From positions 1-42,120 of the forward strand of contig JARXAF010000154.1 in assembly GCA_029865985.1 (NCBI GenBank): a DNA stretch of 42,120 bases, written 5' to 3'. The position numbers and the translations under genes are program-made. Shown piece by piece: positions 12,608-20,943 of the stretch. The DNA comes from Verrucomicrobiota bacterium (GTDB lineage Bacteria; Verrucomicrobiota; Verrucomicrobiia; Limisphaerales; UBA9464). A model generated the notes under the pieces. It was given only the letters and a program-made list of their open reading frames with translations. It was not told where the DNA came from and made no database searches. The first letter of the stretch is position 1; each line of letters starts with the position of its first letter.

Positions 12608-14140
12608 TCAGCGATCGGATTGGACGCGGAAGTAGGACTGAGAAGCAGCGCCTGCATCAACGGACGCTGTCTGAGTGGTCGAGGTGGCCGTTTGAGTGGC
12701 CTGAACCTCGTTCCAGTGGAGGAGATCCGTGGAGGATTCCAGACGGTACTTGGCCCCGACCACCGCTTCCCAAGAAAGGCGAAGCTTTTGGCGCGGAGTC
12801 ACGGACACCTTTTTAAGATCGCGTGCCGACAAGTCTACTCCGGTGCTGATACCCGAAAAATCGCTCCAAATAGCGCGATATCCCGAAGCGGTGGCCACCA
12901 CATTGGGAGCGAATTGATCGTTCCTGCGATTTTGGTTGAGAATCATTTCTTCACCGGCAACCAGGCCGTTGGCGGTGATGGCTTTGGCGGCGATGCCCAA
13001 ACCCGATCCGTCAGCCCCGCGTGTGGACCACACGGCCAAGGCTCCCTCAGATCCGGAAGAGATACGAACCCCGGTTTGGTCATAGGACCGGAAGTCGTTG
13101 AGGGTGGTCGGGGATCCGACGACAACTCCCGTGTTGGAGACGATGGCTGTGCGGATGTCCCAAGATGATTTGGAGTCCAAATCAAACTCTGACCATCCGA
13201 TGATCAGCTTGCCGGTAGGCAGCGTGGCCATGGACGGCCGATCGCAAGGCGCCGCAGCTCCGTTGACCCAGATGGGGGAAGCCGCTTTGCCGTCCGCGTG
13301 GATGATCTGTGCAAAAATGTCGGAGTTTGCCTCCCGACGGGTGCCTTGGCCACCTAGGTTCAGGACATCGGCAGACGCTTGTTCAGCCACCCAGGCAACG
13401 GCGAGGTCACCATTGGGGAGAGCCGAAATCGTCGGTGCCCGATCGACTAATGCAGAAGTACCAAGCACCCGACGATAACCAGAAGGTGATCCAGAACCCT
13501 TAAAGCTCTGCAAATTGATCTTGGACGAGACCCCATCGGCTCCGATGGACTGCCAGGCGAAGGCGAACCCTCCACCGGGGACTTCCGTCATCGCTGGTGA
13601 TTCATGGCTGCCGTTGGAATCAGCCAAAGCCACCACCCACTCATCACCTTGAGGCACTCCAGAGCGGGAGAGCTTGCGGGCATGGATGGATTGCTTGCCG
13701 GGCTTACCGGATTGCCAGGCGACCACAGCCGATCCATCCGCCAAGGCCACCACCACAGGATTCTCTTGATTGAAAAGAGCCTGCTGGTTGACTCGGAGGA
13801 TTTGCGGACTGGCCGATCCCGATTGCAGATTCAACACCCGTGAACCGATCCCGAGCCCATCGCCATCAATGGCGTTGTCCTGCCAAACGACGAACGCGTT
13901 CGACCCTGCGGCGGCCACCGATGCATTGACCTGATCGCCGGCAAGACCAACCGGTGAGGCGCTGTTGGGCAGGATTCGTACCTCGCCCCCGAGGATCTCT
14001 ACCGTTGCCGGTGCGACTTCCTGAATCGTCAAACGCGGCGCTTGAAGAGTGATCCCCTGGCCTAGGACCGACCCTGTGAGACCGATGAGGGCGAGCCCCA
14101 TCAGCGTCCAAGGTGATCGTCTATTTCGGATTTGGTTCAT
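12608..14140 (-). CDS. Exported seven-repeat beta-propeller-like protein
   Basis: 510 residues. The signal peptide is about residues 1-27 (RRSPWTLMGLALIGLTGSVLG). Seven diverged repeats of roughly 45-60 residues follow, each with a P-x-x-x-x-L-x-x-G-x-x-x-V-x-W core: AFVVWQD, SAVVAWQS, GFAFAWQS, DLAVAWVA, KLIIGWSE, GALAVWST and GYRAIWSD. Seven such units fit a seven-bladed propeller. The C-terminal ~65 residues form a separate domain (LRLSWEAVVGAKYRLESSTD, LHWNEV, SYFRVQSDR) similar in pattern to the end of the 1094-residue protein downstream. There is no obvious active site. It follows the secretin gene after 72 bases and is tightly linked to the next gene. I propose a secreted or surface protein handled by the upstream machine, as inference only. 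Confidence 0.84.
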   Translation of the reverse strand: MNQIRNRRSPWTLMGLALIGLTGSVLGQGITLQAPRLTIQEVAPATVEILGGEVRILPNSASPVGLAGDQVNASVAAAGSNAFVVWQDNAIDGDGLGIGSRVLNLQSGSASPQILRVNQQALFNQENPVVVALADGSAVVAWQSGKPGKQSIHARKLSRSGVPQGDEWVVALADSNGSHESPAMTEVPGGGFAFAWQSIGADGVSSKINLQSFKGSGSPSGYRRVLGTSALVDRAPTISALPNGDLAVAWVAEQASADVLNLGGQGTRREANSDIFAQIIHADGKAASPIWVNGAAAPCDRPSMATLPTGKLIIGWSEFDLDSKSSWDIRTAIVSNTGVVVGSPTTLNDFRSYDQTGVRISSGSEGALAVWSTRGADGSGLGIAAKAITANGLVAGEEMILNQNRRNDQFAPNVVATASGYRAIWSDFSGISTGVDLSARDLKKVSVTPRQKLRLSWEAVVGAKYRLESSTDLLHWNEVQATQTATSTTQTASVDAGAASQSYFRVQSDR

Positions 14141-18041: not shown

Positions 18042-19058
18042 CTAACGGCGGGTCGCCTTCGGAGCCTGAGTTGAAGCCGGAGGGAGTGCTAACCGCACGA
18101 CCTCGAAGCCTAGGGTGACTCTGATGGGTTTCTGCTCGAGAACGATATCGCCAACCTTGCCCGACGGAGTCGCCGCGGCGGCATTGGGCTGTGAAGCTGG
18201 AGGCATCGTTCCCATTCCAGGGCGAAGACCATAACGGCTCATCATGGCCATCATTCCAGCGGCCGGATTCGCCGGAGCCGCTTCAGCCGACTCGGAACCA
18301 TCCCCAGAAGGGCGGTCCACGTTGACGGTCTTGAGAACGTAGGCGTTGGAGGCTCCCACAAACCGGGTCAACACTTCTCCCAGTTCAGAGCTGAAGCACT
18401 GGAATTGCACCTCGTACGGATGGATCCCCGCTCCGATCACCGTATTGGTTCCCACCTTCTTGGAGAGGATGTCTCCAGACCCGGCGGGCTCATTGGTACC
18501 AATGGCCGACCTCTTGATATGTTGCAAGGAATGGATCTTGGAGGCGAAGAGGATTTCCGAGAACTCGCGGATGTCGTTCAAGGCCAAGGCCAACGGCTGG
18601 AGGGTGTTGGGAGCCAAACGCAACTCCCGACGCTGAGTGCTGAAGGTAAAGTTGTATTTCGAGCTGGCGCCAGACCCTCCATCCGACCCGGACGGAAGTT
18701 TAACACCTTTGCGCTCAGCAGAACGGTCCAATTCACCGATGGTGCGGGTGAGGAGCGCCTTGAAAGATGCGTCATCCAAGGCTCCTACGGTAGAATACTG
18801 GGAGAAGGTGCTCAGGGACTGGGCTTTCAGCTCGGCAAACCGAACTTGCTCGGCCTTGGCCAACTCGATGTTCTTGGTGTTTGGGTACGGCTCCCGTTTG
18901 ACCAAGGTGTCGTACTCGTTTTTCTTGGCCTCGAGTTCCCCATTGGCGGCTTCAGCATCAGACTGTGCCGAGAACAGGTAGACCGCCCCGCCGATGAGCA
19001 GGGCCAACGCCACAGCTAGGCTGATAACGAAGGCAAGGTTGCGCTTGATCCAGGACAT
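18042..19058 (-). CDS. PilO-like / Amuc_1100-like protein
   Basis: 338 residues: a short basic N-terminus, one membrane helix (about 8-29, LAFVISLAVALALLIGGAVYLF), a coiled-coil-like helix (about 33-84) and then a periplasmic alpha/beta region. The segment YEVQFQCFSSELGEVLTRFV ... NAYVLKTVNV (215-247) has the ferredoxin-like rhythm of PilO/GspM and resembles the equivalent part of Amuc_1100 (LEIAFQGDRESVLKAMNAI). A flexible Ala/Pro/Met-rich linker (about 255-300) carries MSRYGLRPG, a motif also found in the PilMN fusion. A last strand VTLGFEVVRLALP follows. The gene begins one base after the pilMN stop (TGA T ATG). PilO proteins pair with PilN in the periplasm and link the inner-membrane platform to the secretin. 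Confidence 0.82.
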   Translation of the reverse strand: MSWIKRNLAFVISLAVALALLIGGAVYLFSAQSDAEAANGELEAKKNEYDTLVKREPYPNTKNIELAKAEQVRFAELKAQSLSTFSQYSTVGALDDASFKALLTRTIGELDRSAERKGVKLPSGSDGGSGASSKYNFTFSTQRRELRLAPNTLQPLALALNDIREFSEILFASKIHSLQHIKRSAIGTNEPAGSGDILSKKVGTNTVIGAGIHPYEVQFQCFSSELGEVLTRFVGASNAYVLKTVNVDRPSGDGSESAEAAPANPAAGMMAMMSRYGLRPGMGTMPPASQPNAAAATPSGKVGDIVLEQKPIRVTLGFEVVRLALPPASTQAPKATRR

Positions 19059-19059
19059 A

Positions 19060-20943
19060 TCAGAGCTTGATGGGGCGCTTGAGCTTGAGCTTCAGAGGGA
19101 AGGTGAAGGTCGCAGTGGTGTCTTCGACCTGCTCAAGATTACCGGAAAGTGAGGTTTCAGAAGCTTCAAAGAGGGGACTCGCCTTCGCCAGCTTCTCCAG
19201 ATCGTAGGCAATCTGACCATTGGCCTCTTGCTTCACCTTCTGCAAATTGACGGCTCGGATGCTGAGGTTGAGCACGGCCACTTCGTTGGTGGAAGTCGTG
19301 GATTTGGCCTTGGCACCGCCACTGGCTGCAGCGCCTTCAGTGGATCCACCACCCTCTCCACCCTCGGATCCAGTCATGGCGGACTTCGGAAGCAGGCCAT
19401 ACCGCGCCATGAGCTCCTTGCTCATTTGCGGGACCTTCGGAGCCTCTTCGTCGGCCGCGGCCACCTCAGGCTTAGGGGGTTCCGTAGAGTAGAACGTGTC
19501 CACCCAAATGCCCACCGGCACACCCAGCTTCTGTGAAGACTCGGCCTCGGTGGCCTTCAGGATGCTGCGAACCTCTGCGAGAATATCGGGCCAATAAGCG
19601 CGTTCGTTGAGCCAAGCACCCAGTTGGTCGGTCTGCTTATGGATCTCGGAAAGCTTGGCTTCTTCGCCCTTGAGCGAGGTTTCTACACGAGCCAAGGGTT
19701 CCACCTTTTCGGAAATGGTGGCCAAGCCTTCGCGGCGAACCGTCGCGACCTTGTTGTAGAACAATCCAGCGGCCCAAACACCGGCGGCGGCCACGAAGGC
19801 GGCGGCGATGAGGAACGGCTTCTTGGAGTTGAAATCTTGACGGGCCTTGGAGCTCTTGGGCAGCAAGTTCAGCTCGACCGGGCAGTCGGCGATGTTGCGC
19901 AATCCCAGACCCACAACCTCACCGAAGAACGAAGCCGACTTTTCCAATTCCTCGATGTTGACCGACGGATCGATCTGAATGTTGCGGAACGGGCTGAAGT
20001 ATTCGACCGGCAGGTTGAGCTTTTCTTGGAAAAACTCGGCGGAATAGGCCATCACCGATCCGCCACCGCAGAGAAACACCCGCTGAGGAGCCGATCCACC
20101 CTGTTGGGTGCGGTAGAATTGAACCGTCTGATTGACCTGCATGTGCAGGCGAGTCAGGACGTTTCGGGCCACCTTGGAAACCGCAGCCACCTTCGGATCA
20201 TCAGGTTCCTCGTAAGCGCCACCCAGACTGACAAAACCTTGAGCGATCTTGAATTTCTCGGCCTCGGCGAAGGGCACCTTGGACTCGGCTGAGTACTCTT
20301 GGGAAATGGTGTTGGCTCCGACCGGAACCGTCCGGACGTAGAACTTGTTCTTCTCGAAGAGCAAGACATTGCTGGTCTTGGCTCCGATATCGATCAAGAG
20401 GCTGCAGCCCTCAACATCACCGTAATTGTATCGGAAGGCATTGGCCAAGGCGGACATGGAGGCGTCCACCACTTCCATCTTGAGGCCCACCGACTCACCG
20501 ACAGCGAAGAGTTTCTCGACCACCTCGGCCTTGATGGCAACAAGCAGTACTTCGCGAGCCCCGTCGGCCGCGGTTCCGAGGATTTGATGATCCCATGCAC
20601 TCTCAGTCAGCGGGAACGGCACGTTCTGCTGAGCCTCGTACTGGATGATCTGGGAAATCTTGGAGGCGTCGACCGGGGGAAGCTTTACGAACTTCGAGAA
20701 AACCTGATAACCCGGAGCGGTGATATTCGCCTGACGGGAGACAAAACCACCCTCGGCCAGAAGCTCGGTCAGGGCACGCTTCAGGACTCCATCCCGGGCG
20801 GCATCTTGTGAACCGGGTAGGCCCAGAGCACGGACTCCAAAACGGAGGAGCTTCAAACCGCCACCGTCGGCCGGCTCGAACTCAGCGATCTTCAGGGTCC
20901 CTGCCCCGAAGTCGATTCCCAGAAACGTTTTGGCTTTTAGCAT
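19060..20943 (-). CDS. PilM-PilN fusion (FtsA-like ATPase joined to PilN-like domain)
   Basis: 627 residues. Residues 1-350 are a PilM/FtsA-type actin-like domain: phosphate 1 GIDFGAGTLKIAE (9-21), PGYQVFSKFVKLPP (77-90), QYEAQQNVPFPL (101-112), phosphate 2 LLIDIGAKTSNVLLFE (182-197) and adenosine-binding VFLCGGGSVM (289-298). Residues 357-363 read VELNLLP, the conserved N-terminal peptide by which free PilN docks onto PilM. Then come a membrane helix (376-396), a coiled coil (about 400-445) and a PilN-like periplasmic domain (WPDILAEVRSIL, then LNLSIRAVNLQKV to the end) interrupted by a low-complexity linker (487-550). PilM and PilN are separate proteins in classical pilMNOPQ operons. It is the first gene of the block and equivalent in position to Amuc_1101. 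Confidence 0.9.
   Translation of the reverse strand: MLKAKTFLGIDFGAGTLKIAEFEPADGGGLKLLRFGVRALGLPGSQDAARDGVLKRALTELLAEGGFVSRQANITAPGYQVFSKFVKLPPVDASKISQIIQYEAQQNVPFPLTESAWDHQILGTAADGAREVLLVAIKAEVVEKLFAVGESVGLKMEVVDASMSALANAFRYNYGDVEGCSLLIDIGAKTSNVLLFEKNKFYVRTVPVGANTISQEYSAESKVPFAEAEKFKIAQGFVSLGGAYEEPDDPKVAAVSKVARNVLTRLHMQVNQTVQFYRTQQGGSAPQRVFLCGGGSVMAYSAEFFQEKLNLPVEYFSPFRNIQIDPSVNIEELEKSASFFGEVVGLGLRNIADCPVELNLLPKSSKARQDFNSKKPFLIAAAFVAAAGVWAAGLFYNKVATVRREGLATISEKVEPLARVETSLKGEEAKLSEIHKQTDQLGAWLNERAYWPDILAEVRSILKATEAESSQKLGVPVGIWVDTFYSTEPPKPEVAAADEEAPKVPQMSKELMARYGLLPKSAMTGSEGGEGGGSTEGAAASGGAKAKSTTSTNEVAVLNLSIRAVNLQKVKQEANGQIAYDLEKLAKASPLFEASETSLSGNLEQVEDTTATFTFPLKLKLKRPIKL

Follow-up and report, generated by a model that had tools for sequence, protein, structure and literature searches.

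The question raised by this locus is how a type IV pilus PilM ATPase and its partner PilN are arranged when one gene encodes both, and where the peptide that docks PilN on PilM would lie once it is enclosed within the chain. The gene is found in the window, by which we mean the whole 42,120-nucleotide stretch of Verrucomicrobiota DNA analysed here. As the first-pass annotation had proposed, it is a natural PilM-PilN fusion, since one minus-strand open reading frame of 627 residues encodes a PilM domain followed by a PilN-like half (Table 1). The PilM domain, described there as complete, was indeed recovered over its whole length by profile searches, with both TIGR01175 (residues 5-350, 148 bits, cut-off 133) and PF11104 (residues 9-350, 106 bits, cut-off 27) scoring above their cut-offs, and the closest solved structures to this half are the PilM proteins of Myxococcus, Thermus and Pseudomonas. 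Residue K18 aligns with Lys-26 of Thermus PilM, an ATP contact (PMC6325625), and is invariant in 60 relatives; from the profile and this conserved lysine the PilM half is predicted to bind ATP. A sequence error or a false fusion was ruled out, as 57 of the 59 relatives compared match, and nearly all the close ones among them do so with full-length fused frames that have no stops. The fusion is real and old.

Table 1. Features of the fused gene and of the genes downstream of it, in positions of the window.
Feature	Position	Strand	Evidence
Fused PilM-PilN gene, Amuc_1101/MUL2B relative	19060..20943	-	627 aa; NF045709 and TIGR01175 scores
PilM actin-like ATP-binding domain (predicted), residues 1-350	19894..20943	-	profiles, K18 alignment
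Docking motif VELNLLP, residues 357-363	19855..19875	-	conservation, spacing, alignment with 5EOU MARINLLP
Single membrane helix (predicted), residues 376-397 (approximate), within AF2 helix 363-473	19753..19818	-	sequence, AF2
Periplasmic helix (predicted), residues 398-473	19525..19752	-	AF2
PilN/GspL-like ferredoxin-type domain (predicted), residues 474-627	19063..19524	-	fold, orthologue matches, profile-profile comparison
Amuc_1100-like gene, 338 aa, directly downstream of the fused gene	18042..19058	-	NF038287 69 bits, cut-off 180
Amuc_1099-like gene, 265 aa	17225..18022	-	NF042425 24 bits, cut-off 50
Amuc_1098-like secretin, 996 aa	14213..17203	-	NF042912 360 bits, cut-off 750; PF00263 102 bits
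510-aa protein, conserved next gene after the secretin	12608..14140	-	38/46 loci

The identity of the C-terminal half, for which a PilN profile against residues 356-627 had been suggested as the test, was reached by a less direct route. The Pfam PilN profile (PF05137) gave no match to residues 357-627 of the window protein, but taking this as a refutation was overturned by the orthologues, by profile-profile comparison and by the fold. In the orthologue L078 the same region is matched by PF05137 with 23.2 bits (cut-off 22.8), and the orthologues L079-L081, of the same region and layout, reach 17.6-20.4 bits, below that cut-off. When a profile of 169 fused C-termini was compared with a split PilN profile, built from four split Verrucomicrobiota PilN and E. 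coli HofN, the match was 97% (E 1e-10), a value to which the docking motif and membrane helix contribute, as the periplasmic part alone gave 92%; the controls in the same comparison gave 6.5% for PilO and 0.1% for PilP. The AlphaFold model of residues 398-627 (mean pLDDT 82) shows a single long helix and then a ferredoxin-type domain, which is interrupted by a disordered Gly/Ser/Glu-rich insert at about 489-551. The top seven VIA-align rows for this model are GspL domains or PilO; the GspL periplasmic domains score Z 8.1-9.2, with 75-80 residues covered of 75-82, and PilO Z 8.3. Because Z values of 8.1-9.2 are barely above those of unrelated small domains, the fold argument rests on family consistency and not on Z. 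Foldseek alone found no match to the periplasmic domain at E<=0.001, and solved PilN chains are not among the VIA-align matches listed, which is uninformative on identity. A search of the host genome found no PilN elsewhere. Taken with the docking motif of N/D-L-x type before a single transmembrane helix, which the window protein also has, the orthologue matches, the controlled profile comparison and the modelled fold identify the C-terminal half as PilN-like.

The docking peptide had been reported as kept inside the chain, and this stands: VELNLLP is conserved across 169 fused homologues drawn from the whole phylum Verrucomicrobiota. Its position needs correction, however, since the GGGS adenosine motif (residues 293-296) precedes it by about 63 residues, and not about 50, and since the tether measured from the end of the PilM domain at residue 350 is much shorter, comprising residues 351-356 only. 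In the phylum-wide alignment L360 is invariant (169/169), P362 is kept in 168 of the 169 homologues and a phi-[NDSE]-L-x-P pattern occupies the motif position in 167, whereas the linker, the membrane helix and the periplasmic part around it are less conserved. Spacing is equally strict: G345 and P362 lie 17 residues apart in 167 homologues and 16 in the other 2, and P362 and P376 are separated by 14 in all 169. Judged by this conservation pattern, the motif is under selection and not a product of chance. Variable spacing would be expected of a flexible tether, and constancy on both sides of a built-in docking element.

As to where the peptide docks, the structural comparison favours the chain's own PilM cleft. 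The full-length AF2 model (mean pLDDT 81, and 82-87 over residues 351-370) superposes through its residues 5-363 on residues 10-366 of 5EOU_B with Z 34.3 and rmsd 3.7, these ranges being first and last aligned residues only, and with the reservation that AF2 may have learned from 5EOU, which may itself be chain-swapped; PilM-only chains in the same comparison end at 351-353. The 5EOU structure is an engineered P. aeruginosa PilM:PilN(1-12) chimera, which likewise carries the PilN docking peptide on the PilM C-terminus, with a linker from PilM to MARINLLP of nearly the same length as in the window protein, but is artificial and ends after the peptide. Because the model superposes on this chimera through residue 363, we moderately favour docking of VELNLLP in cis. 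Helices are often capped by prolines, and the long helix of the AF2 model begins at 363, right after P362, so that the NLxP segment, as a remnant of the fusion, could serve merely as cap and hinge for the membrane helix and have no docking function; this is distinctly improbable, given that L360 is selected as well as P362, that the spacing is fixed upstream of the motif as well as downstream, and that the segment matches the docked chimera. Somewhat less remote, though still unlikely, is docking in trans, in which the motif would enter the cleft of a neighbouring subunit and link the fused chains into a ring or filament. Myxococcus PilM-PilN has been modelled as a dodecameric ring (as cited in PMC8389850), FtsA, of related fold, forms filaments once FtsN binds its IA-IC cleft (PMC7613929), and a fixed linker length is compatible with a fixed swapped geometry too. 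Against trans docking stand the monomer model, confident at 351-370 and superposing through 363 on a single 5EOU chain, and the shortness of the linker, which makes a neighbour harder to reach. A further consequence of docking in trans, a linked PilMN ring unable to exchange PilM and thereby in a regulatory state that split systems lack, seems to us decidedly more doubtful than trans docking itself.

The genes around the fusion place it in a known group. Homology and gene neighbourhood make the window protein a divergent relative of Amuc_1101 (MUL2B) from the gut bacterium Akkermansia: it scores 492 bits against the Amuc_1101 family profile NF045709, below the equivalog cut-off of 650, and it stands in an operon with homologues of Amuc_1100, Amuc_1099 and Amuc_1098, a feature of that family. 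These three neighbours also fall below their own NCBIfam cut-offs, and the order PilMN-1100-1099-1098 is kept in all 46 related loci that are long enough to tell gene order. The 510-aa protein that follows matched no family above cut-off in profile searches, and in the secretin the core is preceded by long low-complexity stretches rich in Gly and Met (GGMGGGMGGM). Amuc_1101 proteins are homologous to the window protein from residue 1 to about 517 and share the order of PilM domain, motif, membrane helix and periplasmic part; members above the cut-off have the motif LNIDLxP and the same Amuc_1100-1099-1098 neighbours, but are only about 29-39% identical to it. The closest named relatives of the window gene are MAGs labelled Akkermansia muciniphila (several), Pedosphaera, Limisphaera and Limisphaerales. 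Four MAGs titled Akkermansia muciniphila (L118, L120, L124 and L126) hold copies of the fused gene that are 72-100% identical, and because members above the Amuc_1101 cut-off are only so distantly similar, these titles look like naming artefacts. A plasmid origin was also considered and gave no real match. The gene amuc_1101 has been named 'cell division protein FtsA' (PMC5332112) and its product, MUL2B, 'a PilM protein' (PMC13174399), and the NCBI description of NF045709 speaks of PilM-like or FtsA only; within the part of the literature covered by our search, no mention of a PilN half was found. The window protein is therefore a divergent member of a known protein group whose anatomy had been correctly read from the sequence, and what is added here is that its C-terminal half is of PilN type, that the spacing of the motif is strict, that the model matches 5EOU, and that split and fused forms can occur together in one genome.

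Other known systems also resemble this arrangement. One is GspL of type II secretion (PulL, XcpY, EpsL), in which, as in the window protein, a single chain holds a PilM-like domain, one transmembrane helix and a ferredoxin-like periplasmic domain. Published accounts treat PilMN as the orthologue of this single-chain GspL (PMC4471445; PMC3815138). With the domain order shared and GspL domains the best matches of the periplasmic fold, the window protein might be a GspL and not a pilus PilMN, a reading we hold to be very improbable: its N-domain is of PilM type, with PilM profiles above cut-off and the GspL profiles PF05134 and TIGR01709 giving no match up to E=1, its neighbours are the Amuc_1098-1100 set in a different operon, and a distinct GspL-like protein is encoded elsewhere in the genome, within a pseudopilin cluster (L003:9639-11318, in G000:C190). 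That protein is itself another PilM-like fusion, with EFDFLNP ahead of its membrane helix in the place of the docking motif. GspL-like proteins align to PilM over too short a stretch for a PilM/GspL tree. A natural PilM-PilN fusion has also been reported in C. difficile (Melville and Craig 2013, as cited in PMC6916266), which is unlike the present organism in being a monoderm without secretin, and a different PilN motif has been proposed for monoderms (review PMC6916266). Split type IVa PilM and PilN have the same PilM domain, NLLP-type docking motif and PilN-like domain, but as two genes and not one chain.

The novelty implied for the fusion was overstated, as the architecture is that of GspL, the C. 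difficile case is on record and, in the survey of split and fused forms that had been called for, fused forms proved widespread in the phylum. NF045709 matched in 278 of 288 genomes, an upper bound since the weaker matches include other PilM-type proteins. Split operons are rare in the phylum: in four genomes of the 288, a short pilN of its own immediately follows a stand-alone pilM. In these four loci the pilM stop and the pilN start abut, and the pilN N-termini (MNLRIDLI in L110, MSVRVNMM in L112, MIIRIDLL in L113 and MTYPRVNLL in L114) resemble the docking motif of the fused forms of the same phylum. Strong fused matches were present as well in three of the four genomes (G208, G325 and G331). 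Other PilN-domain matches lay mostly in frames of 380-590 residues; three of these were examined, and each frame also contains a PilM match, which in one case falls below cut-off. A [DNE]-L-x-P-like motif precedes the membrane helix in most of twelve inspected frames, so that a motif kept within the chain is a general feature of the fused forms in this phylum.

Putting these results together, we propose that the fused gene encodes an inner-membrane platform subunit of MUL2 type (Amuc_1098-1101), with PilM and PilN in one chain, a proposal that we regard as likely as a whole. Residues 1-350 would form the cytoplasmic ATP-binding PilM domain, and residues 357-363, presumably the former N-terminal peptide of PilN, would follow after a linker only a few residues long and most likely turn back to dock in the PilM cleft of their own chain. 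Beyond this peptide, a single membrane crossing would lead to the terminal periplasmic ferredoxin-like domain, which would pair with the Amuc_1100-like product of the next gene and be connected onward to the secretin via the Amuc_1099-like protein. A fixed 1:1 stoichiometry had been put forward as a departure from classical systems. Split Thermus PilM:PilN complexes, however, form as 1:1, 2:2 or 3:3 and are already about 1:1, so the fusion would fix an existing partnership; and since only PilN-bound Thermus PilM raises the ATPase activity of the motor PilF (PMC6325625), the likely effect is that PilM would stay bound to PilN and so in the form that activates the motor. The accompanying proposal that regulated PilM release is lost is speculative. 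Binding of PilN reportedly changes the partners that PilM engages in split pili, and a lineage with a tethered peptide, together with genomes that have both forms, offers a natural test of whether PilM-PilN exchange matters. Recognition of a PilN half in Amuc_1101 would also mean that the health-linked Amuc_1100 locus is probably an inner-membrane platform of pilMN-O-P-Q type. For the O and P roles in this reading, profile-profile comparison gave no sequence link, at 4.5% for the Amuc_1100-like protein against PilO and 0.4% for the Amuc_1099-like protein against PilP, and a PDB sequence search with both proteins found nothing.

An additional observation concerns the secretins of this genome. 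GspD normally has three Secretin_N domains. On the contig that carries the GspL-like fusion, directly after GspK-GspL-GspM-like genes, a GspD-like secretin of 3950 aa (G000:C190:22334-34186; L205:835-12687:+) contains 38 Secretin_N domains and one secretin core. Its homologues, encoded by open frames of about 3600-4300 aa, were met in several further genera of the same family, and one more family of the order also has them.
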